64,000 bases of DNA from Heliocidaris erythrogramma (lineage: Eukaryota; Echinodermata; Echinoidea; Camarodonta; Echinometridae). Shown one piece after another: positions 15,602-60,112 of this stretch. Position 1 is the first letter of the stretch; each line of letters opens with the position of its first letter. A program made the position numbers and the translations under genes. The notes under the pieces are model-generated. The model saw nothing but the letters and a program-made list of their open reading frames with translations. It had not been told where the DNA came from and ran no database searches. The stretch spans positions 19,174,994-19,238,993 of the forward strand of contig CM046869.1 of assembly GCA_025617745.1 (NCBI GenBank), in the 5' to 3' direction.

Positions 15602-15816
15602 CTACAGATCTCCCGTAAGGCTAATCTTAACCAGGGAGAGGTACTGAGTTGATGATTTCGGTCCCTTCTCATACAGGATGTATATGTACTTGCTGTCTTC
15701 CGGGTTGTTGGGAATGGCCGTCATGGTGCTGTAACCGCTGGGATTGGGCCAGATTTGGAGGGAGCCAGCCCAGGTGGTGCCGTTGTCGTAGCTCCATCGT
15801 AGCGTCAGGTTTATTC
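15602..15816 (-). CDS. NEU1: sialidase-1 (NEU1-like), exon 6 (last)
   Basis: This exon encodes residues 309-379 and the TAG stop (15602-15604). It follows an acceptor CAG|GAATAAAC and enters in phase 1, completing the Arg codon split with exon 5. It carries the fourth Asp box (SYDNGTTW, 317-324), the third active-site arginine (Arg315 in LTLRWS), and the PSGYS motif, whose Tyr338 probably matches the sialidase nucleophile. N-glycosylation sequons lie at 311 and 320. The C-terminal YIYILYEKG...SLVKIS strand is typical of NEU1, which ends here without extension. NEU1 cleaves terminal sialic acid from glycoproteins and oligosaccharides in the lysosome, where vertebrate NEU1 works bound to cathepsin A. 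Confidence 0.93.
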
Positions 15817-16930: not shown

Positions 16931-17150
16931 TGTGAGTATCATTTTCAGGATTTGTAAACAGGAGAACACCCTTGTGGTAGAGGATGGACGCCGCCACGGT
17001 GGGGTCGACCAAGGTCGTGTCAAAGCGGAGGTCGTCCGTCTTGAATGTGTCCGCTCCGTCGTAACTCATGAAGACCATTCGGCAGTGACAGTGGTACTGA
17101 TATTGGTTCCTGACATTCACCATAATGGAACCATCGGGAAGCTCCAAAGG
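16931..17150 (-). CDS. NEU1: sialidase-1 (NEU1-like), exon 5
   Basis: This exon encodes residues 236-308 plus one base. The acceptor is CTCAAG|CCTTTGG (phase 0) and the donor is CTCACA|GTAAGTACAG (phase 1). It begins PLELPDGS and contains NVRNQ (246-251, Arg249 being the likely second active-site arginine), YHCHCR (cysteines 256 and 258, as in animal NEU1), SYDGADTF, and VDPTVAAS. The first roughly 53 bases of this exon, with the adjoining intron, are repeated five more times upstream (next entry), at least two of them in frame without stops. The annotated start is the acceptor nearest the conserved exon. It makes the join DECQ|PLELPDG, which agrees with NEU1 relatives. Confidence 0.93.
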
Positions 17151-18395
17151 CTTGAGAATTAGAAGAAGAAAGTGAGTTGAGATTGAATTTAACTTAAATT
17201 GGATATGAAAATGAAAGCGTAGATGAAATAATGTAACTGAAAATAGTGGATGGTGGTGCTGATATTGGTTCCTGACATTCACTATGATGGAACCATTGGG
17301 AAGCTCCAAAGGCTTGAGAATTAGAAACAGAAACTGAGTTGAGATTAAATCAAACTGAAATTGGATATGAAAATGAAAGCGTAGATGAAATAATGTAACT
17401 GAAAATAGTGGATGGTGGTGCTGATATTGGTTCCTGACATTCACTATGATGGAAACATTGGGAAGCTCCAAAGGCTGAAGAAAGAGAAGCAGAAATTGAG
17501 TTCAGATTAAATTTAACTGAAATTGGATATGAAAATGAAAGCGTAGATGAAATAATGTAACTGAAAATAGTGGATGGTGGTGCTGATATTGGTTCCTGAC
17601 ATTCACTATGATGGAAACATCGGGAAGCTCCAAAGGCTTGAGAATTAGAAACAGAAATTGAGTTGAGATTAAATCATACTGAAATTGGAAATGAAAATGA
17701 AAGTGTAAATGAAATCACAGTTGTAATATAAATGAAAATAGTGAACGGTGGTATGGCTAGAGTGCCTATGTCTGTGCAGGGCCCTTGTCTTCACACATGT
17801 GTAACTGCGCGATTCTAATCAAACAAAACACGCAACTAACACAAACTTTTTTTCTTTATTAAATTGTTAGATATTAGTAAAAAAAACAAGTCAAAATATT
17901 GAAAAAGGTCTTAATTTACAAATTTTATTCACAACCCCCAAAATGTTGCCCTTCGTGTCAAAACATCTGAACTGCGTGTAAAATGAATGAGTCCGCAGAT
18001 ATGGGCACCATTGTTTTTTTCAATGTAAAAAAATGACACGGCTGCCATTTCTTGTAAACATGGCATTGTTCTTGCTCAAATTTTGATCAGATTTCTTGCA
18101 CACTTACTTTTTAGAATACCAGGAATAATATAAAATTAAGCAGAGGAATATTATAGACAAATCTTAGGTGCACAGACATAGGGCTCCCCATCATATTGGT
18201 TCCTTACAGTCTCTATGATAGAACCATCGGATATCTCCAAAGGTTAGAGAATTTAAAGTGAAAGTGACATAGAAATTGAGCTGAAACTGAATTGAAATGA
18301 AATTGGAAATAAAAGTTTAAATGTAAAAATGAAATGGGATTGGCAATGAAAATATGTAATGAGGGAGCCATCTGGAAGCTCCACAGGATGGAGAA
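17151..18395 (-). repeat. NEU1 intron 4: 162-bp tandem array of partial exon 5 copies with acceptors
   Basis: Copies of the exon 5 start (CCTTTGGAGCTTCCC plus the NVRNQ-coding part) with their upstream acceptor begin at 17312, 17474 and 17636. The spacing is exactly 162 bp from the real exon at 17150. Two decayed copies begin near 18242 and 18389. Removing the 17759-18187 element brings the 17636-18242 gap to about one unit, so the array predates that insertion. Units 2 and 3 have AG acceptors with pyrimidine tracts (unit 3: TTCTCTTTCTTCAG), and the frame is open from 17474 through the real exon. Unit 4 contains a TGA. Confidence 0.85.
17759..18187. mobile_element. DNA element with GAGTGCCTATGTCTGTGCA-type inverted ends
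   Basis: About 430 bp with inverted ends (left GAGTGCCTATGTCTGTGCA, right TGCACAGACATAGGGCTC), inserted between units of the exon 5 array. A full homologue at 59172-60019 carries a further insertion. The interior is AT-rich and non-coding. Confidence 0.7.
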
Positions 18396-18861
18396 GCAAA
18401 AATGAAAATGATAATGAAAACTGTGTTGACATCAAACTGAATCACTTTTTGACATGAAAGTGAAAAATAAAAAAAATTGAAACAATATTGGAAATTGAAA
18501 TTGATGGTAAAAATTTTAATTACTTCAAAAATAGCAGCAAATGACCAAGTAGTCTAAACAGTCATATATTTCATAAATGTATTGAAATAAAGGGGAAAAA
18601 GTAGAAATCTCTACTTCATCACAAACCATCTGCAGTCAGAGTGAATGGTGTTGAACAAGATAAAACAATCCTCCTATTTTGATCAAATATAAAGTGAATG
18701 CATCACACACTAACATAATCGTGGATTCTATTAGAGTATTTTCTGATCCTGATGATAATTCATAGTGTACTACAGTACTACTGACCTTGGGTCTTAAAAT
18801 GGAGAGCATGGGGCCAGTTATGCCCACCCCCTTAAATCTCCCAGAGCTATATATCACATAC

Positions 18862-19044
18862 CTGGCATTCGTCTGGAACAAAGTCTCCTGTGATCTTGTC
18901 GGTGTTGAAAGGGATGCTCTTGACCGTTCCACCATACCTCCAGGTATCACCATGGTCATCACTAAGAAGACAGAAAAGACCGTCACCAGGCAACGTACTA
19001 TGACCACAGAGGATCAGTCTTCCTATGTGCGGTGCATGCTTTTT
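18862..19044 (-). CDS. NEU1: sialidase-1 (NEU1-like), exon 4
   Basis: This exon encodes residues 175-235, exactly 61 codons, phase 0 at both ends (acceptor CACGCAG|AAAAAG, donor TGCCAG|GTATGTG). It contains [11 protein letters not shown], the [18 protein letters not shown] block with the third Asp box (SDDHGDTW, 202-209), and ends VPDECQ. The block is strongly NEU1-type rather than NEU2/3/4-type. Confidence 0.93.
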
Positions 19045-19735: not shown

Positions 19736-19998
19736 CTGAATTCCGTAACCGGGACCCCCGGCAAACATCCTGGTTCCAATCTGTTTTGAGATGTTGTATG
19801 GTTTGGTCCACGTGATACCATCGTCCATGCTCTTGATGTAGTACTGGGTAGAGATGTTGCACTGGACGTAGTGACCGCAAACCTGGTAGAAGATGAAGAT
19901 GGTCGCCTTAATATCATCCACCAAGACTACACCCAAATTCAGGCCGTCCACGACCGGCCCGTCATTGAGGATAAACTCCTCGGGCTGCCATGATGCGC
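19736..19998 (-). CDS. NEU1: sialidase-1 (NEU1-like), exon 3
   Basis: This exon encodes residues 87-174 (acceptor TTTCAG|GCGCATC, donor ATTCAG|GTCAGTT). Two bases complete the Gly87 codon, finishing the first Asp box (SEDRGASW, 83-90), which the intron splits. The exon contains NDG...DGLNLGVV, the second Asp box SMDDGITW (143-150), and N-glycosylation sequons at 134 and 155. It ends in GGPGYGIQ. The order of motifs and the length match animal NEU1. Confidence 0.93.
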
Positions 19999-22535: not shown

Positions 22536-22722
22536 CTCTATCCTCTGATCTCCTTGTGGCCAGAAACTTTGGTCCTGCATCACCTCCGCCATTTTTCCTG
22601 GCCTCGCAGATTGCGAGGAGATGACCCTTTGGGGTGTAGGTCAAGAGAGGTATCCGATAGATGCCAACATTATCCTGGCCAGATACCCATAACAGTTGTT
22701 CTTCTTCTATAATTGGGTTTAC
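22536..22722 (-). CDS. NEU1: sialidase-1 (NEU1-like), exon 2
   Basis: This exon encodes residues 25-86 plus one base if exon 1 is 48294-48365. The acceptor TCTGTTGCAG|GTAAACCC opens in phase 0 and the donor is GATAGAG|GTAGTG (phase 1). It contains EEEQLLWVSG, the YRIP motif (46-49; Arg47 is the first arginine of the catalytic triad), LLAICEARKN, and the start of the first Asp box. The sequence C-terminal to a signal peptide begins here in NEU1 relatives, so one short upstream exon is expected. Confidence 0.92.
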
Positions 22723-25529: not shown

Positions 25530-26943
25530 AAAACGATTTGTGCAGATTAGAGTATAATGCATTTTTATAGAAAATTCTGAAGAAATATGACCTCAGAGCG
25601 CACATAAGCCATCCACTAAAATATGACCTTTGATCCTATGAAAGACGGAACACTAGAGGCAGCATCACCAAAAACTGTAGAGGTGTAATCTATAATGGAC
25701 CTACATACAAAATCTGAAAGAAATGAGTTAACAAATGTGTCCTCCAGAATGCATGCAACAAAAATATGACATTTGACCCTAACAACAACCTGAATATGAC
25801 ATTTGACTGTATAGAAAGTGGTACAGTGGGGGTAGCATCAGCAAACAATTTAGATGTGTAGGTTTCACTAAGACACATCTTCATATAAAATTTGAAAGAA
25901 ATCCATCAAGAAATGTGGCCTGCAGAGTGCACTCACGCCATGCCCTGAAGTATGACCTTTGACCCTATAAAGGACGGAACAATGAGGGCAGCATCACCAA
26001 AAATTAAATATGTGTAGATTATACCAAGATACATCTCCATACAAAATTTGAATGAAATCCGTCAAGAAATGCAGAAGTAAGAGTGCACAAAAGGGACAAA
26101 TGAGCTTTGACCCTATAAAGGACGGAACAATGAGGGCAGCATCACCAAACAGTAAAGATGTAAAGATGTGTAGATTATACCAAGATACATCTCCATACAA
26201 AATTTGAAAGAAATCCATCAAGAAATGTGGCCTGCAGAGTGCACTCACGCCATGCCCTGAAGTATGACCTTTGACCCTATAAAAGACGGAACATTGGTGG
26301 CAGCATCACCAAAAACTATAGGTTTTTAGATTACACCAAGAGACACCTTCATGCAAAATTTGAACGAAATCCGTCAAGAAATGCAGAAGTAAGAGTGCAA
26401 GAAATGGAAAAATGAGCTTTGACCCTATAAAGGACGGAACAATGAGGGCAGCATTACCAAACAGTAAAGATGTGTAGATTATACCAAGATACATCTCCAT
26501 ACAAAATTTGAAAGAAATCCATCAAGAAATGTGGCCTGCAGAGTGAACTCACGCCATCCCTTGAAGTATGACCTTTGACCCTATAAAAGACGGGACACTG
26601 GTGGCAGCATCACCAAAAAGTACAGGTTTTTAGATTACACCAAGGGACACCTTCATGCAAAATTTGAACGAAATCCGTCGAGAAATGCAGAAGTAAGAGT
26701 GCAAGAAGAGCGCACATAAGCCATCCACGAAAAATATGACCTTTGATCCTATGAAAGACGGAACACTAGAGGCAGCATCACCAAAAACTGTAGAGGTGTA
26801 ATCTATAATGGACCTACATACAAAATCTGAAAGAAATGAGTTAACAAATGTGTCCTCCAGAATGCATGCAACGAAAATATGACATTTGACTGTATAGAAA
26901 GTGGTACAGTGGGGGTAGCATCAGCAAACAATTTAGATGTGTA
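25530..26943. repeat. array of 150-165-bp repeats, left part
   Basis: Degenerate units share TATGACCTTTGACCCTATAAA, GACGGAACACTGGGGGCAGC, ATCACCAAAAACTATAGG and AAATTTGAAAGAAATCCGTC. They repeat about every 147-167 bp (GACGGAAC near 25646, 25973, 26121, 26285, 26431, 26756). The array continues at 30276 after the foldback insertion and ends in a hairpin at about 31088-31115. Internal tandem cores plus a terminal hairpin recall the Helentron-related HINE/pearl elements of molluscs, which is an inference. Confidence 0.75.
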
Positions 26944-30275: not shown

Positions 30276-31115
30276 CACTAAGACACATCTTCATATAAAA
30301 TTTGAAAGAAATGTGTTGAGAGATATACCAAGATACATCTCCATACAAAATTTGAAAGAAATCCATCAAGAAATGTGGCCTGCAGAGTGCACTCACGCCA
30401 TGCCCTGAAGTATGACCTTTGACCCTATAAAGGACGGAACAATGAGGGCAGCATCACCAAACAGTAAAGATGTAAAGATGTGTAGATTATACCAAGATAC
30501 ATCTCCATACAAAATTTGAAAGAAATCCATCAAGAAATGTGGCCTGCAGAGTGCACTCACGCCATGCCCTGAAGTATGACCTTTGACCCTATAAAAGACG
30601 GAACACTGGTGGCAGCATCACCAAACACTATAGGTTTTTAAATTACACCAAGAGACACCTTCATGCAAAATTTGAACGAAATCCGTTGAGAAATGTGACC
30701 GCCAGAGCGCACACAAGAGTACACACAAGACATCTATCAAAATATGACCTCTGACCCTACAAAAGACGGAACACTGGGGGCAGCATCACCAAAATCTATA
30801 GGGTTCCAGATTTTACCAAGAGACACCTTCATACAAAATTTGAACAAAATCCGTTGAGAAATGTCACCGCTAGAGCGCACACAAACTATCCCCCAAAATA
30901 TGGCCTTTTACCCTATAAAAGACGGAACACTGGGGGCAGCATCACCAGAAACTATAGGGGTCCAGATTTTACCAAGATACACGTCCACAGGAAGTCTGAA
31001 AGAAATTCGTCGAGAAATGTGACCGCTAGAGCGCACACAAGAATGTGACGCGGCCGCGGCGGCGGCGAAACGCTGCTGAATCCAAAGTATCCTCCGGCAT
31101 ACTGCCGGGGGATAC
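30276..31115. repeat. array of 150-165-bp repeats, right part, with terminal hairpin
   Basis: Four to five further units (GACGGAAC near 30433, 30597, 30763, 30920) lead to a GC-rich end (CGCGGCCGCGGCGGCGG). A near-perfect hairpin follows at about 31088-31115: TATCCTCCGGCA, loop TAC, TGCCGGGGGATA. Confidence 0.75.
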
Positions 31116-38370: not shown

Positions 38371-39390
38371 CTACAAAGAAGACACAGCGGCCTTCAAGGT
38401 GGCTGACGCAAACAAAGCTTCACCTGCGGGAATATCCCTAAGGTAGCAAGAGATGAAGGAATTGGGCGAACGCCAATAAGCAGCCTTCAAAATATCAACA
38501 AGCGCCACACCTTGAAACAGAGCCCAAGAAGTGCTGACACTACGAGTATCATGAGCACGAGGCTTACTGTCGGATAAAAGAGCCTCTGTGCCAGCGGCCC
38601 TAATAGCTTCAACGATCCATCTAGAAATGGAATCAAGAGAGGCAGGAGAAAAAGGCTCTCTAGTGATCAGGAACAACTGATCATCCTTACGATAAGACTT
38701 AGTCTTATCAATATACCATTTGAGAGCCCTAACAGGACACCAAACTTTGTCCTCACGCACCGAAGAAAAGTCAGAAAGCGGACAAAGAAAAATCTCAACG
38801 GGACCGGAGGTAGCTGTCTGATTCTTGGCAACGAAAGAAGCCCTAGGAATCAACCTAACACCTTTTCTCTCCCAGCGAACATGACCAGGAGTAAGACAGA
38901 GAGCATGAAGAGTACTGCGCCTCTGCCCAGAGGCAATAGCTACCAAAAAGAGCGTCTTAACCGTAAGATGATGAAGCGAAGCTTCACCTAACGGTTCAAA
39001 AGGAGGTTTCGCCAAGGCCTCCAGGACCTTAGGCAGACTCCAAGACGGCACTAACTTAGAAAACGAAGGTCGTTTCAGAAAGAACGAACGAATCAAACCA
39101 CTTAGCAGCGGGGAATTGGAAATCCCCGAACCATCCGAAAAACCCGAATGAATGGCCCCGATCGCCGAACGGTAGCCTCGGATAGTAGAAATAGATCTCC
39201 CTTTGTCAAATAACGAGATTAAGAAATCCGCAATTGAACCAATAGGAGCCTTAGAAGGGTTTGATTTCTCTCTTTGCACCAAAGGAAAAAGACCGAGAGA
39301 CGGGAATTGTAAATTTCCCTAGTAGAGACCCTACGACTGGACATTAAAAAGTCCGCGGCTCTATCAGAGAGACCCGACTGTCTTGCAGAT
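38371..39390 (-). CDS. DIRS tyrosine recombinase (one frameshift near 39270)
   Basis: The long open frame 38371-39282 holds the catalytic domain. The N-terminal core-binding helices (SDRAADFLMSSRRVSTREIY) continue upstream in another frame, so a one-base shift near 39265-39275 separates them. Catalytic residues are visible: the first Arg in SGQRRSTLHAL, the HDTR box in PRAHDTRSVSTSWA, and the Tyr nucleophile in FISCYLRD, close to the C-terminus. The SWALFQG...AAYWRS segment between box and Tyr is typical of DIRS recombinases. The enzyme would integrate a circular DNA intermediate into the nuclear genome. Confidence 0.88.
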
Positions 39391-41378
39391 TCCCTGACAG
39401 GGGCCAAGCAGTCAAATGAAGAGACTCCGGATTGTGGTGAAGAATCCCCGATAGGGGCTGTAACACCAGATCCGCTCTTAACGGGAGAACTAACGGTTGA
39501 GCCCTTAGAAGGCTCATAAGTTCCGGAAACCAATTCCTCCTGGGCCAAAAGGGAGCTATTACAAGCACCCTCGCCCGATCTTCCCTGATTTTCCGCAAGG
39601 CACGCGGAATCAGTTGGAAGGGAGGAAAGGCGAATCCCTGAAGGTTCTCCCAGCTGAGGGAGAAAGCATCGAGAGCCCATGCTCCCTGATCGCGAACACG
39701 GGAGCAATACTTCGGCAGCTGTTGATTTAGCACCGACGCAAATAGATCCACTTCCAGTGGACCTAGGCAACTGCGAATGCGGCAAAATACCTCCGGATGG
39801 AGCATCCATTCCGATGGAAGATACCTGCCCCGGGACAGAAAATCCGCAATGAGGTTTTCCCGACCGGGATGAAAGAGGCCACGGGTGTGATTGCCATGCG
39901 ACGACACCACCTCCACAGCTGAGCTGCTAGGGCATTCAAGGCAACCGAACGAGTGCCTCCCTGCCGATTGATATATGCCGCCACAGTAACGTTGTCCGTG
40001 AGAATCAGAACCGAACGACTGAGAAGTCGACTTCTGAAATGGAGCAAGGTCAACAGAACTGCCATAAACTCCAGGACATTGATATGAGGAAGAGTCCCAA
40101 GATGAGACCAATCCCCCGCAACCGTGCTGCCGTTGCAGTGTCCTCCCCACCCCAACCGAGAGGCGTCCGTCGAAACCGATATCGACGGAAGAGGGACAGA
40201 GAAGGACCTGCCTCGCGCGAGAAACACCTCGCTCGTCCAACAAGCGAGAAGAGACTTGATCTTTACTGGTACTGGAATCCAGACCAAAAGAGAGTCTTTT
40301 CCCGGCTTGAAGAACCTGAGGAGATGTCTCTGAAAGGGTCTCATGAGGAGCCGGCAGTCCTCTAAAACATCGACTAGACTGGCTAGATAACCTAGAAACT
40401 GAAGCCACTGTCTGGCCGAGACTCTTCTGGCCAGCAAGAGCTTGCGAGCCGCAGAGACAATGGTGAGAATCCTGTCTCGACTGGGCCGAGCTAACTGATT
40501 CCTTATGTCTAACACCGCCCCAGAAAAACTGGGCTGCGAGTGGGGACTAACTCTGACTTTTCCCAATTTATTAGGAAACCTAAGTCTTGAGTAAGAGAGA
40601 CGAGCAAACGAGTCTCGTCCAACAAACGATCGCGCGACTCCGCAAGGAGAAGCCAATCGTCCAGGTAACAAAACAACCGCAGGCCGCGACGCCTCAGAAA
40701 GGCCGCTAGCACCGCTACAGTTTGAGTAAAAACCCGAGGGGCCGGGCGCAGCCCGAAGGGAAGAGCCCGAAAACGAAAAGTCTCCGAGAGGAAGGAGAAC
40801 CCCAGAAGATCGCGAGATGCGCGATGAATGGGAATGTGAAAGTACGCGTCCTTGAGATCTATCGAGACCGCGTAGTCTTCCCTTTTGATCAACGGAAGAA
40901 TGGAGGCAAGAGTCTCCATCCGAAAATGAACCGGAGGAATAAATTTGTTTATCCTCTTTAGGTTCAGTATCAAACGAAGTTTTCCCGAGCGCTTGGGAAT
41001 AACAAATATTGGAGAAAGGGAAAGAGACGGCCTGTCTCTTACCCTTTCTATAGCCCTCTTTTCCAAAAGAGACTCGATCTCCTTCGAAGCATGAGACCGA
41101 GACAGGGCAGACATGGGAGGTGACCGAATTCTTATAGCCCCTCCGGGGAGCGAGGCGCAAAGATCTATGAAGAATCGGTCTCGCACGACGGAGAGAACAA
41201 ACACGTCCCCGGAGATGGCCTCCCAAGCGGGGAGAAACGCATGAAGTCGGCCACCTACCACATTCGGTCGAACAAGCGCTCGGGGAAAAACATCAAAATC
41301 CAGGCTTGGCCTTCTGCGAAGCCATCGCCTTACCACGAGAACCTCTCGAAAAGCCCCTGCCACGACTCCCTCTCCCAC
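39380..41378 (-). pseudogene. DIRS reverse transcriptase - RNase H, frameshifted
   Basis: The RT domain (frame ending at 40509) shows PIFVIPKRSGKLRLILNLKR, the SIDLKDAYFHIPI motif, FRALPFGLRPAPRVF, and the catalytic CYLDDWLL. Its start overlaps the gag end by about 86 bases. After a shift near 40516-40520 (a GGGG run), the next frame carries the linker and RNase H (STDASRLGWGG, NVLEFMAVL, LTDNVTVAAYINRQGG). After a shift near 39885, the third frame carries the rest (LIADFLSRG, LHPEVFCRI, EVDLFASVLN, WALDAFSLSW). Another shift near 39380 leads into the recombinase. All domains are recognisable in order. The breaks are consistent with single-base losses or assembly errors. Confidence 0.88.
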
Positions 41379-43552
41379 GAGACGGAGCTGGCTGAGGCTC
41401 AGGAGGCGGGACCCTAGACACGCGACTGCGTTGACCCGAAACAGGACCAGCAGGTCTACGCCGAACAGGGGCCCGCGTTGGCTTAGAGCTAGTGTGAAAC
41501 TGCTTAGTCATATCCGAGATCTGCTTTCGCGCATCGATCTCTCTTTGAAACACCGTAGCGAATTTACCACCAAAAAGCGAAGGACCCCGAGACGGAACAT
41601 CTCGGAGAAGTTGAGCAATGCCCGACTCTCTAACACCCAGTGCTGAGAGAGCCGAGGTCCTGCGACGGAACGTAGCCGAAGCAGCTGCTGTGGAAAGCTG
41701 CGACCACTGCAGACAAAAAAGAGTATGCAGCAAGTCGTCAATAATCAGCTTGTCACCATCGGTAACATTCAACTCCTCCGCCCTGGACCTAAGGTCGGAG
41801 AGAAGCCCTTGAAAAGCCGCCAAACGCATCCCTGACCTAATGTGGTTTTCAATATTAGACCAAATCTTATCCTCCGCCCTGAACGCAGCGGAGGTAAGCG
41901 GATTAGTCGCCCGCAAGCGACGACCAACCTCTAAAATCTCAGGAGAAAGAATCTTAGCCTTGAAAAAGCTGTCTTGGTCCTGAGAACAAAAGGCAAAGGC
42001 CTTACCCCTGACCGCATTAGATCGCTTAACCAACACCGCGGCCTCAATGCGGTCATACTCCAGCTTGAAAACCTCCTCAAGAGCAATACCCTCAGAGGAG
42101 ACCTGCTGCTTGAAATTCCAACGCGAAGTCGAACCCTGCGCGCGGGTTGACTGAACTTCAGGGAGATATTTGGACAACAAAGCAATCGCTTCCACTCCAC
42201 AGAGATTGAGCGATTGAGACTCCGCCTGCCCAAGCGATTCGGGAACCGAAGCTTGAGAGGACGCATCCAAATCTGGTTCCACCCGAGTGGAATGAGACAA
42301 AGGAACGCTAACAAAGGCCTCCGCAGGCGGGTCCCCGCATGGTTCACCAAAAGTCTCCTCGCCCGGCGGAGCCCCGAGGGCCGCGGGAATAGGAGGCACA
42401 TGCGAATCAGTCTCAGACAAAGAGGAATCAATCACAAAAGGCTGATTAGACTCAAAGCGAGATTCCTGAATAGGGACAGAAGTCAGGGTTGAAGAAGCCG
42501 GTACAAAGGACCAACCCTGATTCTGAGCAAAAGCCCGCATCATACTGAACATGTCAGCTTGAGAGGAGCTAGCCGGGTCAGCCAGGCCAGACGGGCAAGA
42601 GGCCGGCAAAGCCTTGCCGCTTTTCGCCTTCTTCTTGGCCTTTTTCTTGGCTGGCTCGACAATAGTCGTAGCCGAAACCCTTTTCTTAGAACGCTTAATC
42701 GGATTCGTTCGGATCCCCGAAGCCTCTTCGGAAACACGAACCGATTCCTCCGCGGAGGGACGTTCACTTCCCATAAAGGGATTGGAGCGCTCATGGCGTA
42801 AGCCTAGAGAATCGCCCAAATCACCCATATTGGCTAGGCAAGAAGATGCCATAGCCATGGGTTGGGAGCTAAAAGCTCCCAGTGCGTGGGCAGACCGAGA
42901 TGACTCGGTATGTGCCCGATGACTACTAAAGGCATGTGAACCCACTATTGGACCGCTCGAAAGCAGCAATAGGGGAGCACTAGTAGTCACGCACTCAGGT
43001 GAAAACACCTGTTGCTCCGAAGAGCGTCCATAATTGTTAGCTCGAGCATTCCCATCAGCTGGCAACTGAGACAGCCCAGAAAGTACTCGTTCCCCCATAT
43101 GGCGTTTGCCGGGGGCTAGGGTTTGAGAACCCAGACCAACATGGACTAAGCCCGTGGGTTGCCCTGCAGTAGTGGGGCGCGTCTCCCCTAACGGATCAGA
43201 GCGAGTGAACGCTACCGTACGGGAAACAACAGCCCCCCCCCTCTGGTCTCAGCGACCGGGGGATTGGATTCGAGATATCCAAACCACTAGAATCTGACGC
43301 CACCCACCCCGAAACCACAGGCTTCGGAGTTGACAATCCCGATTCAGTTAACGCCACCCGTCCCGAAGCCGCAAGCTCCGAAACTGGCAAACTCTGCAAG
43401 GGAACACCACTAGGCAACTTACCTTTAGCCCTCCTCCCTCCCCCGCGTACCGCTGTACTCGGGGGAGTTCTGGAAGGCCGAGTCGTCTTGCTAGACAACT
43501 CTTCAGAAGAAGCAGGTCTCCTTGACCCAGCTGCTTCTTCTTCCGAATTCAT
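41293..43552 (-). pseudogene. DIRS gag-like protein, frameshifted at a G9 run
   Basis: The main frame runs 41293-43098 and remains open upstream to about 43241. There a run of nine C (nine G on the coding strand, 43233-43241) joins it to a second frame whose start is most likely Met at 43552 (MNSEEEAAG). Together they would give about 750 residues. Features: a Ser/Pro-rich N-terminus, a lysine-rich stretch (EPAKKKAKKKAKSGK) like a nuclear signal, and an RG-rich C-terminal tail (RGRGSRGRGFSRGSRG) suited to nucleic-acid binding. No zinc knuckle is seen. The homopolymer shift may be a real mutation, slippage, or a sequencing error. Confidence 0.75.
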
Positions 43553-43972
43553 ACCACTGCAATAAAACAGACAATAAAGTATACTTTTCAAATTAAGAAA
43601 TACTTCAACTGAATGCAGTAAATAAAACTAAAGTTTATTTGGGAGATACGCACTAAAGAAATTTTCACAGCCTAAAAACCGTAAGAACAAACACCGAACC
43701 CGAAGGCTCGGTGACAAACGGAAACACCCGCAAACACGGAAATATCTACGTGGGGCTGACCGTGAAAGAGAAAAATAAATGCCAAGAAAGGGAATCAAAA
43801 AATCCCTTGCAATCGGCAAGAGTGACTAATAAAACACAAAGTACTATAATCTAAACGAATATAGGTACCTAAAAGTGCTTTAACTATGTGAAAAAGCGCA
43901 CCAAAAAGATACTATACGACCTGATTTCAGGAGCGCTGTGACTATACGTCCTAACTCGTCGGGGGCGAGCAA

Positions 43973-44123: not shown

Positions 44124-44143
44124 ATGATTTATTGCAGTAAATT

Positions 44144-45175
44144 AGAACCTTAAGACGCAAAGTACATTTATCGACTTGAAAATTGGTTCGGCGCATAAAT
44201 TACGAAGAATCTACTGACCAAATGAAACAACAAATAAATTAGAACTAAGACGCAAAATACATTTATCGAATCGAAAATTGATTTGGCGCGTAACTAATGA
44301 ATAATATTCAACCCAAATAAAACATGAAATGAATGAAGTATACAACGCAAAATGTTTATATCGGATAGAAAATTGGTTCGGCGCATAAATTACAGAGAAT
44401 CTACTGACCAAATGAAACAACAAATAAATTAGAACTATAAGACTGTTAAAATTGATTTGGCGCGTAACTAATGGATAATATTCAACCCAAATAAAACATG
44501 AAAGGAATGAAGTATACAACGCAAAGTGTTTATATCGGATAGAAAATTGGTTCGGCGCATAAATTACAGAGAATCTACTGACCAAATGAAACAACAAATA
44601 AATTTGAACTATAAGACGCAAAATACATTTATCGAATCGGAAATTGATTTGGCGCGTAACTAATGAATAATATTCAACCCAAATAAAACATCAAATGGAT
44701 AAAGTATACAACGCAAAATGTTTATATCGGATAGAAAATTGGTTCGGCGCATAAATTACGAAGAATCTACTGACCAAATGAAACAACAAATAAATTAGAA
44801 CTAAGACGCAAATACATTTATATCGAATCGGAAATTGATTTGGCGCGTAACTAATGAATAATATTCAACCCAAATAAAACATCAAATGGATAAAGTATAC
44901 AACGCAAAATGTTTATATCGGATAGAAAATTGGTTCGGCGCATAAATTACAGAGAATCTACTGACCAAATGAAACAAATAAATTTGAACTATAAGACGCA
45001 AAATACATTTATCGAATCGGAAATTGATTTGGCGCGTAACTAATGGATAATATTCAACCCAAATAAAACATGAAAGGAATGAAGTATACAACGCAAAATG
45101 TTTTATCGAATAGAAAATTGGTTCGGCGCATAAATTACAGAGAATCTACTGACCAAATGAATTAGAACTATAAGA
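44144..45175. repeat. dimeric satellite array, about 188-bp higher-order unit
   Basis: TTGGTTCGGCGCATAAATTA recurs near 44184, 44374, 44551, 44742, 44931 and 45119, a spacing of about 177-192 bp. Each unit holds two related halves of about 95 bp, one with GGTTCGGCGCATAA and one with GATTTGGCGCGTAA, so the array is a dimer-based higher-order repeat. The apparent minus-strand frames (44211-44621, 44882-45091) are repeat artefacts. Confidence 0.85.
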
Positions 45176-59097: not shown

Positions 59098-59171
59098 GGT
59101 AATATATCTCCTGCAGCTTTATCATCATACTTGAATGTGGTATCATTAGAAAGCTTGATTATTTCTCTGTA

Positions 59172-60019
59172 TGGCTAGAGTGCCCAAGTCTGCGCAGTGC
59201 CCTTGTCAGTAGAGGCGCACGGCCGATATGGGAGACTATTTCCTATTTGGGATACCATCTCTATTATCAGAGACTTATGTCAGCATTCTTGATAGCCTAT
59301 TTGGGAGACAGACACTTAGGAGACCAATTTTTGTTTTTTTTTACATATGCGGCAAAGGGATTACCTTGGCTCAAAATGAAAATGTGATAAGCAGATTCCT
59401 CATGAAAAATTACCCCTTTTGACCGTCTACTTTTGTTTCCATAACAGTTTTTGTTTTGATCCACACACAAACAAATGGGCTTCTGATTTCTTAGGGGAAA
59501 AAATTCTATTGTCCTCTTGTTAGCAAAGTCTCCAATATCAGAGATCAGTGAGAGAGAGTCTCCCACATTGGCTGTGCGCCTCTACTGCTTGTCTGCGCAC
59601 ACGCGTAACTGCGCGATTCTGGTAAAACAAAACACGCAAAGAACAAAAACTTTTCATCTTTATCATTGTGATAGGTACTGTATTCATGCAAAAAAGAGTA
59701 AAAATATTGAAAAAAGGTCTTATTTCAGACTCATTATTCACAAGCCTCAAAATGATGCTTTTCACGTCAAAACTCCCAAACTGCGTGCAAAATGAATGAG
59801 TACGCAGACATGGGCACCATTGTTTTTTCAAATTTGAAATGACACGGCCGCCGTTTCTTGTGAAAATTGCATTGTTCCTGTTCTAATTTTCATGAGATTT
59901 TTTGTGAACTTACTCTTTAGAATATCAGGAATATATAAAATTAAGCTTTAGAGGAATATTAAAGAAATTCTTGTTCATTTTTAGATCAAAATCTTACGTT
60001 CGCAGACATAGGGCTCCCA
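59172..60019. mobile_element. homologue of the 17759-18187 element carrying a nested insertion
   Basis: GGCTAGAGTGCC...CTTGTC and CTTGTCTGCGCAC...GCAGACATAGGGCTCCCA align with 17755-18187. The 380 bp between the two CTTGTC copies is an inserted element. Confidence 0.8.
59208..59587. mobile_element. nested 380-bp MITE with AGTAGAGGCGCACGGCC ends
   Basis: Inverted ends of about 29 bp (AGTAGAGGCGCACGGCCGAT; right GGCTGTGCGCCTCTACT) are flanked by CTTGTC on both sides. The related copy at about 17787 has a single CTTGTC and no insertion. The target duplication is 6 bp, possibly 7-8 with a mismatch. Confidence 0.85.
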
Positions 60020-60112
60020 ATAATACAATGGTGTGTCAAACTCATTTGAAATGCTTATGCAATCGTGAAATGCACTGACCTGATGAATATGCCATGTATG
60101 CAGCAAGGTTAA

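Follow-up and report, generated by a model that had tools for sequence, protein, structure and literature searches.

Tandem copies of intron-exon borders, termed "mirages", have been described in the lancelet globin, Adh, troponin C and PGBD5 genes (PMC3087553, PMC3902484). As characterized in the globin report, these arrays are minisatellite-like, with splice signals in many but not all repeats, and their units are homogenized inside a cluster and distinct at its edges (PMC3087553). In the amphioxus BflGb6 gene the array lies on the acceptor side, is built from units of 150-160 bp and varies in copy number between haplotypes, and the RT-PCR presented there suggests that normal splicing is undisturbed (PMC3087553). 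Splice sites are also contained in the PGBD5 repeats, of 60 and 108 bp, which reportedly leave splicing unaffected (PMC3902484). It has been suggested that mirages provide material from which new introns arise. In the potato RdRp gene, a tandem duplication over the border between an intron and the following exon is described as leading to intron gain, where branch site, pyrimidine tract and AG were copied and the upstream copy supplied the donor (PMC4974935).

Inspection of the NEU1 gene of the sea urchin Heliocidaris erythrogramma reveals head-to-tail units over an intron-exon border, in which units 1-4 carry the acceptor AG and units 5 and 6 do not. The array resembles that of BflGb6 in its side, the acceptor, and in its similar unit size. 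It differs from the lancelet globin mirages in coming from an echinoderm, in being seen in the sequence of one assembly and in having a transposon inside it, whereas haplotype length differences and RT-PCR are available for the lancelets. With the lancelet Adh, troponin C and PGBD5 mirages it shares tandem repeats that contain splice sites, while the genes, unit sizes and animals differ. Its duplication geometry is that of potato RdRp, in contrast to which the donor-like sites in units 2-4 score below all authentic donors. On the donor side, a minisatellite in human G1P3/IFI6 reportedly supplies multiple splice donors to the transcript, in work attributed to Turri in 1995; the NEU1 array is alike in that a minisatellite over a splice site offers several such sites in a row. 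Our search of the open-licence literature found no echinoderm mirage, the arrays so named there being those of lancelets. We infer that the NEU1 array is a fairly ordinary mirage in an animal where none was expected, that it is old and that it is mostly silent.

The NEU1 gene and its border array

The window analyzed is a stretch of 64,000 nucleotides (C17:19174994-19238993 of a 1.06-Gb genome in 26 contigs). On the COX1-bearing contig of this genome, four AAA codons of COX1, among them one in QIYNVVVTAHA, are read as asparagine, as in the echinoderm code. A 16S primer match, COX1, tRNA-Arg and frames recognizable by eye as ND4L and COX2 follow one another there in the order known from sea urchins, which points to an echinoderm and probably to a sea urchin. 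Five sialidase exons can be read from splice sites and translation on its minus strand between 15602 and 22722 (Table 1). Their combined product matches Sialidase-1 (PDB 8du5) over query residues 1-354 of 355 with E = 2.9e-125, where the second-best PDB chain reaches only 5.1e-31, and Pfam assigns it to BNR_2 (4e-32). On this alignment, which covers nearly the whole length, the gene is NEU1, as an earlier note on this DNA had called it. The alignment crosses DECQ/PLELPDG, the product of the 18862-17150 junction, without a gap. The published NEU1 layout has six exons (PMC3431349), of which five were located here, exon 1 not among them. Introns 4 and 5 are both long, at 1711 and 1114 nt, respectively.

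Read on the minus strand, the repeated unit comprises 60 nt of NEU1 exon 5 and the 102 nt of intron preceding it, at 162-bp spacing. TRF reports 17091-17715 with a period of 162, 3.9 copies, 92% matches and 0% indels, and a repeat finder returns three 300-nt copies spaced by 162 and 162, the other two being 93% identical to the first. Acceptor and exon sequence recurs at 17150, 17312, 17474 and 17636. This spacing and these four sites are as the earlier note gave them, while the exon share of each unit is 60 nt rather than its approximately 53. The repeat finder also recovers a 66-nt border segment in six copies (17100, 17262, 17424, 17586, 18193 and 18337), where copies 2-6 share 94, 88, 94, 80 and 62% identity with the first. 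Four units are well preserved, unit 4 carrying 9 extra nt in its intron part relative to units 1-3. The two older copies that had been suspected beyond them, unit 5 near 18242 and unit 6 near 18385, are real by the measure of dinucleotide shuffling (0 of 2000 shuffles reach the local score of either), and both have lost the AG. A DNA search of the same genome, which leaves out very common words, found the array unit nowhere else, its 4 matches all lying at the NEU1 locus.

Table 1. Positions in the window of the NEU1 exons, the array units and the inserted element; slashes mark the border.
Feature	Positions	Strand	Description	Evidence
NEU1 exon 2	22536..22722	-	187 nt	splice sites, translation, 8du5, own-genome protein search
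NEU1 exon 3	19736..19998	-	263 nt	splice sites, translation, 8du5, own-genome protein search
NEU1 exon 4	18862..19044	-	183 nt, ends ...DECQ, donor CAG/GTATGT	splice sites, 8du5, protein search, donor scores
NEU1 exon 5	16931..17150	-	220 nt, starts PLELPDG, acceptor CTCAAG/CC	splice sites, 8du5, paralog border
NEU1 exon 6	15602..15816	-	215 nt with stop	splice sites, translation, 8du5, protein search
Unit 1	17091..17252	-	60 nt true exon 5 and 102 nt intron, expected acceptor 17150	TRF, repeat finder, unit alignment
Unit 2	17253..17414	-	acceptor-like site 17312, score 5.8, would add 54 in-frame codons	
Unit 3	17415..17576	-	acceptor-like site 17474, score 13.9, would add 108 in-frame codons	
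Unit 4	17577..17751	-	acceptor-like site 17636, score 5.8, TGA reached if used	
Dispersed element	17752..18195		444 bp, between units 4 and 5, TA at both ends	family comparison, joined flanks
Unit 5	18196..18345	-	older copy, approximate limits, AG lost (CTCTAAC/CTTTGG)	repeat finder, shuffles
Unit 6	18346..18486	-	oldest recognizable copy, approximate limits, core 18364-18395, AG lost (CCATCC/TGTGGAG)	

The window holds further repeats. Upstream of NEU1 exon 2 lie two arrays of the same 156-bp unit type (25789-26703 and 30324-30947), separated by ~3.6 kb. A nested array at 44138-45161 combines periods of 95, 174 and 191 bp with 73-97% matches, and a 90-bp array at 1690-1963 (three copies, 97%) is open in one frame on each strand. 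Long overlapping, retroelement-like ORFs occupy the minus strand from 38374 to 43627, where ORF 40512-41507 matches RVT_1 in Pfam (E = 9.2e-21) and two scanned neighbor ORFs have no Pfam match.

Age of the array and repeats in related genes

The element between units 4 and 5 belongs to a dispersed family with at least 40 scored genome matches, the array copy included, from 2054 candidates. In the nine other copies compared, of 468-469 bp each, both ends are TA; their flanks are all different, except that two copies (L009 and L010) share one. TA ends of this kind are what duplication of a TA target would produce. When the flanks of the array copy are joined with a single TA kept, the resulting sequence, ...AACCAATACCACCGTTCACT..., is much like the junctions between other units, retaining CCACC and being shorter by 6 nt, which argues that the element entered an array in which unit 6, unit 5 and one or more inner units were already in place. 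Units 1-3 may have multiplied after this insertion. Compared with a majority sequence built from eight relatives, the array copy is 13.8% divergent, a figure that is a rough age guide only, since seven of the eight lie within 1.1% of the majority and form a young subfamily. The presence of a 444-bp transposon within the array indicates that the array is old and makes an artefact of assembly improbable. A second family member occurs in the window at 59170-59207 and 59590-60025, split by ~380 bp.

Across the four exon-like parts (E1-E4), 5 codons are variable and 4 of these are nonsynonymous; by this count the extra exon copies show no sign of protein-level constraint. E2-E4 differ from one another at 2 of 60 positions, with E1 set apart by 4-5. 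In the 5' parts of the intron sequence, 1 of 58 columns differs among units 1-3 and 8 do once unit 4 joins. These two parts fit the mirage pattern of a homogenized interior with distinct edges, from which the 3' intron parts deviate. There, changes among units 1-3 crowd before the AG (11/44 columns versus 6/118; Fisher P = 0.0007; 58/20000 permutations), and this clustering, for which the segment limits were picked after inspection of the data, weakens when unit 4 is added (P = 0.015; 1708/20000). A uniform array under plain drift would not be expected to show such clustering near the acceptors of units 1-3.

A protein search of the same genome for related genes scored 19 candidates and returned 11 matches, of which five correspond to the NEU1 exons. 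The other six, with identities of 39-46%, are located on C19 and are consistent with a cluster of three additional sialidase genes. This cluster (C19:20980205-21021377) would consist of NEU1-like genes with a long first matched exon (approximately residues 1-180) and the border DECQ/PLEL, and 148-bp repeat arrays lie between matched exons in two of the three. The paralog loci with this border (L024-L026) all have an acceptor-like CAG at the same place, with an upstream exon ending in Q seen in two of the three genes, and an array at the border was sought in these loci and is absent. Another paralog locus, L023:2024-2268 (C19:21014351-21014594), contains a perfect 2 x 122-bp tandem copy across an exon end and its donor, made up by eye of 42 nt of exon and 80 nt of intron. 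Judged by this layout, the duplication is a donor-side counterpart of the NEU1 array.

Border-spanning duplications are thus seen in two of four sialidase genes. We surveyed 39 exon loci from family searches (9 PF00083 matches and 30 of 100 PF00067 matches) for TRF arrays with a period of at least 30 and an extent of 15 nt or more on each side of the match edge, and after checking, 0 of the 39 held one. The survey is weak, in that its edges are those of family matches with unchecked splice sites and nine of its loci (L044-L052) are nearly full-length single exons; with 0/39 in other families, the two in four found for sialidases is no rate. One candidate, a 107-bp array over a family-match edge in L037, was rejected upon placement of the exon donor at 1576, with the array (1278-1556) wholly intronic. 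In L041 an array lies near the match edge and does not cross it.

Splice-site strength and the predicted insert

Acceptors and donors were scored with a generic weight matrix. On this scale the acceptors of NEU1 exons 2, 3, 4 and 6 score 12.8, 10.2, 7.3 and 7.9, respectively, and those of the array score 6.8 in unit 1, 5.8 in units 2 and 4 and 13.9 in unit 3. The unit 3 acceptor is the best of the 82 AG sites scored between 16935 and 18829, a range spanning intron 4 and exon 5, and it outscores every other NEU1 acceptor scored. The earlier note had judged its pyrimidine tract better than that of the expected acceptor at 17150, and the acceptor scores bear this out by 13.9 to 6.8. Over the last 20 nt, unit 3 departs from units 2 and 4 at five positions, all between -15 and -3. 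Since TTCTC is found in units 1, 2, 4, 5 and 6, the strong form in unit 3 is probably derived. Five random substitutions reach the gain of unit 3 in 0.02-0.06% of simulations, or in ~0.1-0.2% when four units are allowed for, in a post hoc test on one of four units that takes units 2 and 4 as the older state. The gain could be explained by selection on a used acceptor or by a conversion event. Although found after the fact, it is the best evidence in this sequence for a live isoform.

Position also bears on acceptor choice. The ALTssDB study finds that long introns favor the sites closest across the exon, and that among acceptors the upstream site is preferred overall, a preference that exon definition merely lessens (PMC9225289). 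With introns 4 and 5 both long, acceptor 17150 should be favored; the overall preference for upstream acceptors leaves room for unit 3.

The earlier note had further proposed that the duplication carries extra acceptors from which the protein would be extended in frame. Consistent with this, splicing at 17312 would add 54 codons and at 17474 would add 108, both open, while splicing at 17636 would encounter a TGA within the intron-derived part of unit 3. The chance that both intron-derived parts are open is ~8%, such that open frames alone are weak evidence. The insert is predicted directly after DECQ, ahead of PLELPDGSIMVNVRNQ. The aligned DEN...NSRD stretch carries, in related bacterial sialidases, a catalytic Glu and one Arg of the triad, and the Arg-bearing stretch would come again with each inserted unit. 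An enzyme extended in this way would be unlikely to be active. A search of the insert against Pfam gave no match, and against PDB only a weak one (E = 0.14), between an exon-derived part and Sialidase-1.

Explanations of the array and their consequences

We consider it probable that this is an old border array in which 18862-17150 splicing dominates and the other acceptors are mostly unused by-products. Tandem duplication of the acceptor end of intron 4 with the first 60 nt of exon 5 would have founded a minisatellite-like array, which would have grown and been partly homogenized through unequal crossing-over or replication slippage. The transposon would have landed between units 5 and 4 when units 6 and 5 and one or more inner units were already present. 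The outer units have decayed. Donor 18862 would mainly join the innermost acceptor, 17150, to give a product that aligns without insert to other NEU1 enzymes. Its use would be maintained in two ways, by pairing over the shortest exon with the donor of exon 5 and by selection that removes inserts close to the active site. The remaining acceptors would for the most part be unused by-products of repeat turnover.

Three observations count against this reading: the far stronger acceptor of unit 3 (13.9 versus 6.8), the preference for upstream acceptors described in PMC9225289 and the clustering of changes near the acceptors of units 1-3. The earlier note had left the choice between a live isoform generator and a silent array open. 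The sequence leans toward a mostly silent array, given the nonsynonymous variation, the lancelet analogy and the site of the insert, with the unit 3 acceptor weighing against it. That the third acceptor sees some use is a real possibility.

A live isoform generator, in which 17474 is used in part of the transcripts and yields NEU1 with 108 extra residues right after DECQ, is possible but less likely. Its product would probably be inactive or regulatory, or would reduce enzyme output. The first place of 17474 among the 82 AG sites and over all other NEU1 acceptors scored, its five changes at -15 to -3, rarely equaled at random and probably derived, and its 108 open codons all argue for such use. 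These are offset by an acceptor test that was post hoc, concerned a single unit of the four and used a generic weight matrix, by an insert with no Pfam match and a weak PDB match, by copies free of coding constraint and by lancelet precedents reported as silent (PMC3087553, PMC3902484). It is improbable that unit 3 is a regulated alternative 3' splice site strengthened by selection, an in-frame off-switch for a lysosomal sialidase in a mirage turning functional. If this were true, two extra copies of the exon-derived segment, together with intron-derived sequence, would be inserted beside DECQ.

It is very unlikely that a nascent intron or micro-exon is present, with a donor inside an exon-like unit (ATA/GTGAAT or AAT/GTCAGG) producing a small extra exon. 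The starting geometry is that described for potato RdRp (PMC4974935), and a unit 2-4 acceptor lies 30 nt, in frame, from ATA/GTGAAT. ATG/GTGAAT in the true exon 5 (5.8) and ACT/GTAAGG in unit 5 (5.6) even exceed the weakest authentic donor. However, the donor-like sites at the two exon-like places in units 2-4 score 3.7 and 1.9, below the four authentic donors (4.5-9.8), and unit 5 lacks an AG. With such weak donor-like sites, units 2-4 would hardly be exons of their own, and their acceptors would serve a longer exon 5.

An assembly or haplotype-merging artefact is scarcely credible: mis-assembly is common in tandem repeats, and the perfect 2 x 122-bp paralog copy could be one, but the intron parts of NEU1 units 1-4 differ by 7-16%, which makes them unlikely to be copies made in assembly, and the array holds a diverged transposon and decayed outer units.

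This echinoderm array, with a transposon and graded acceptors (dead, weak and strong) in one intron, offers a natural test of the choice that spliceosomes make between nearly identical acceptors and of whether border repeats ever turn functional. Should the third acceptor prove unused for all its strength, proximity at the exon level or signals of another kind would outweigh acceptor strength; should it be used, the array would yield protein variants.
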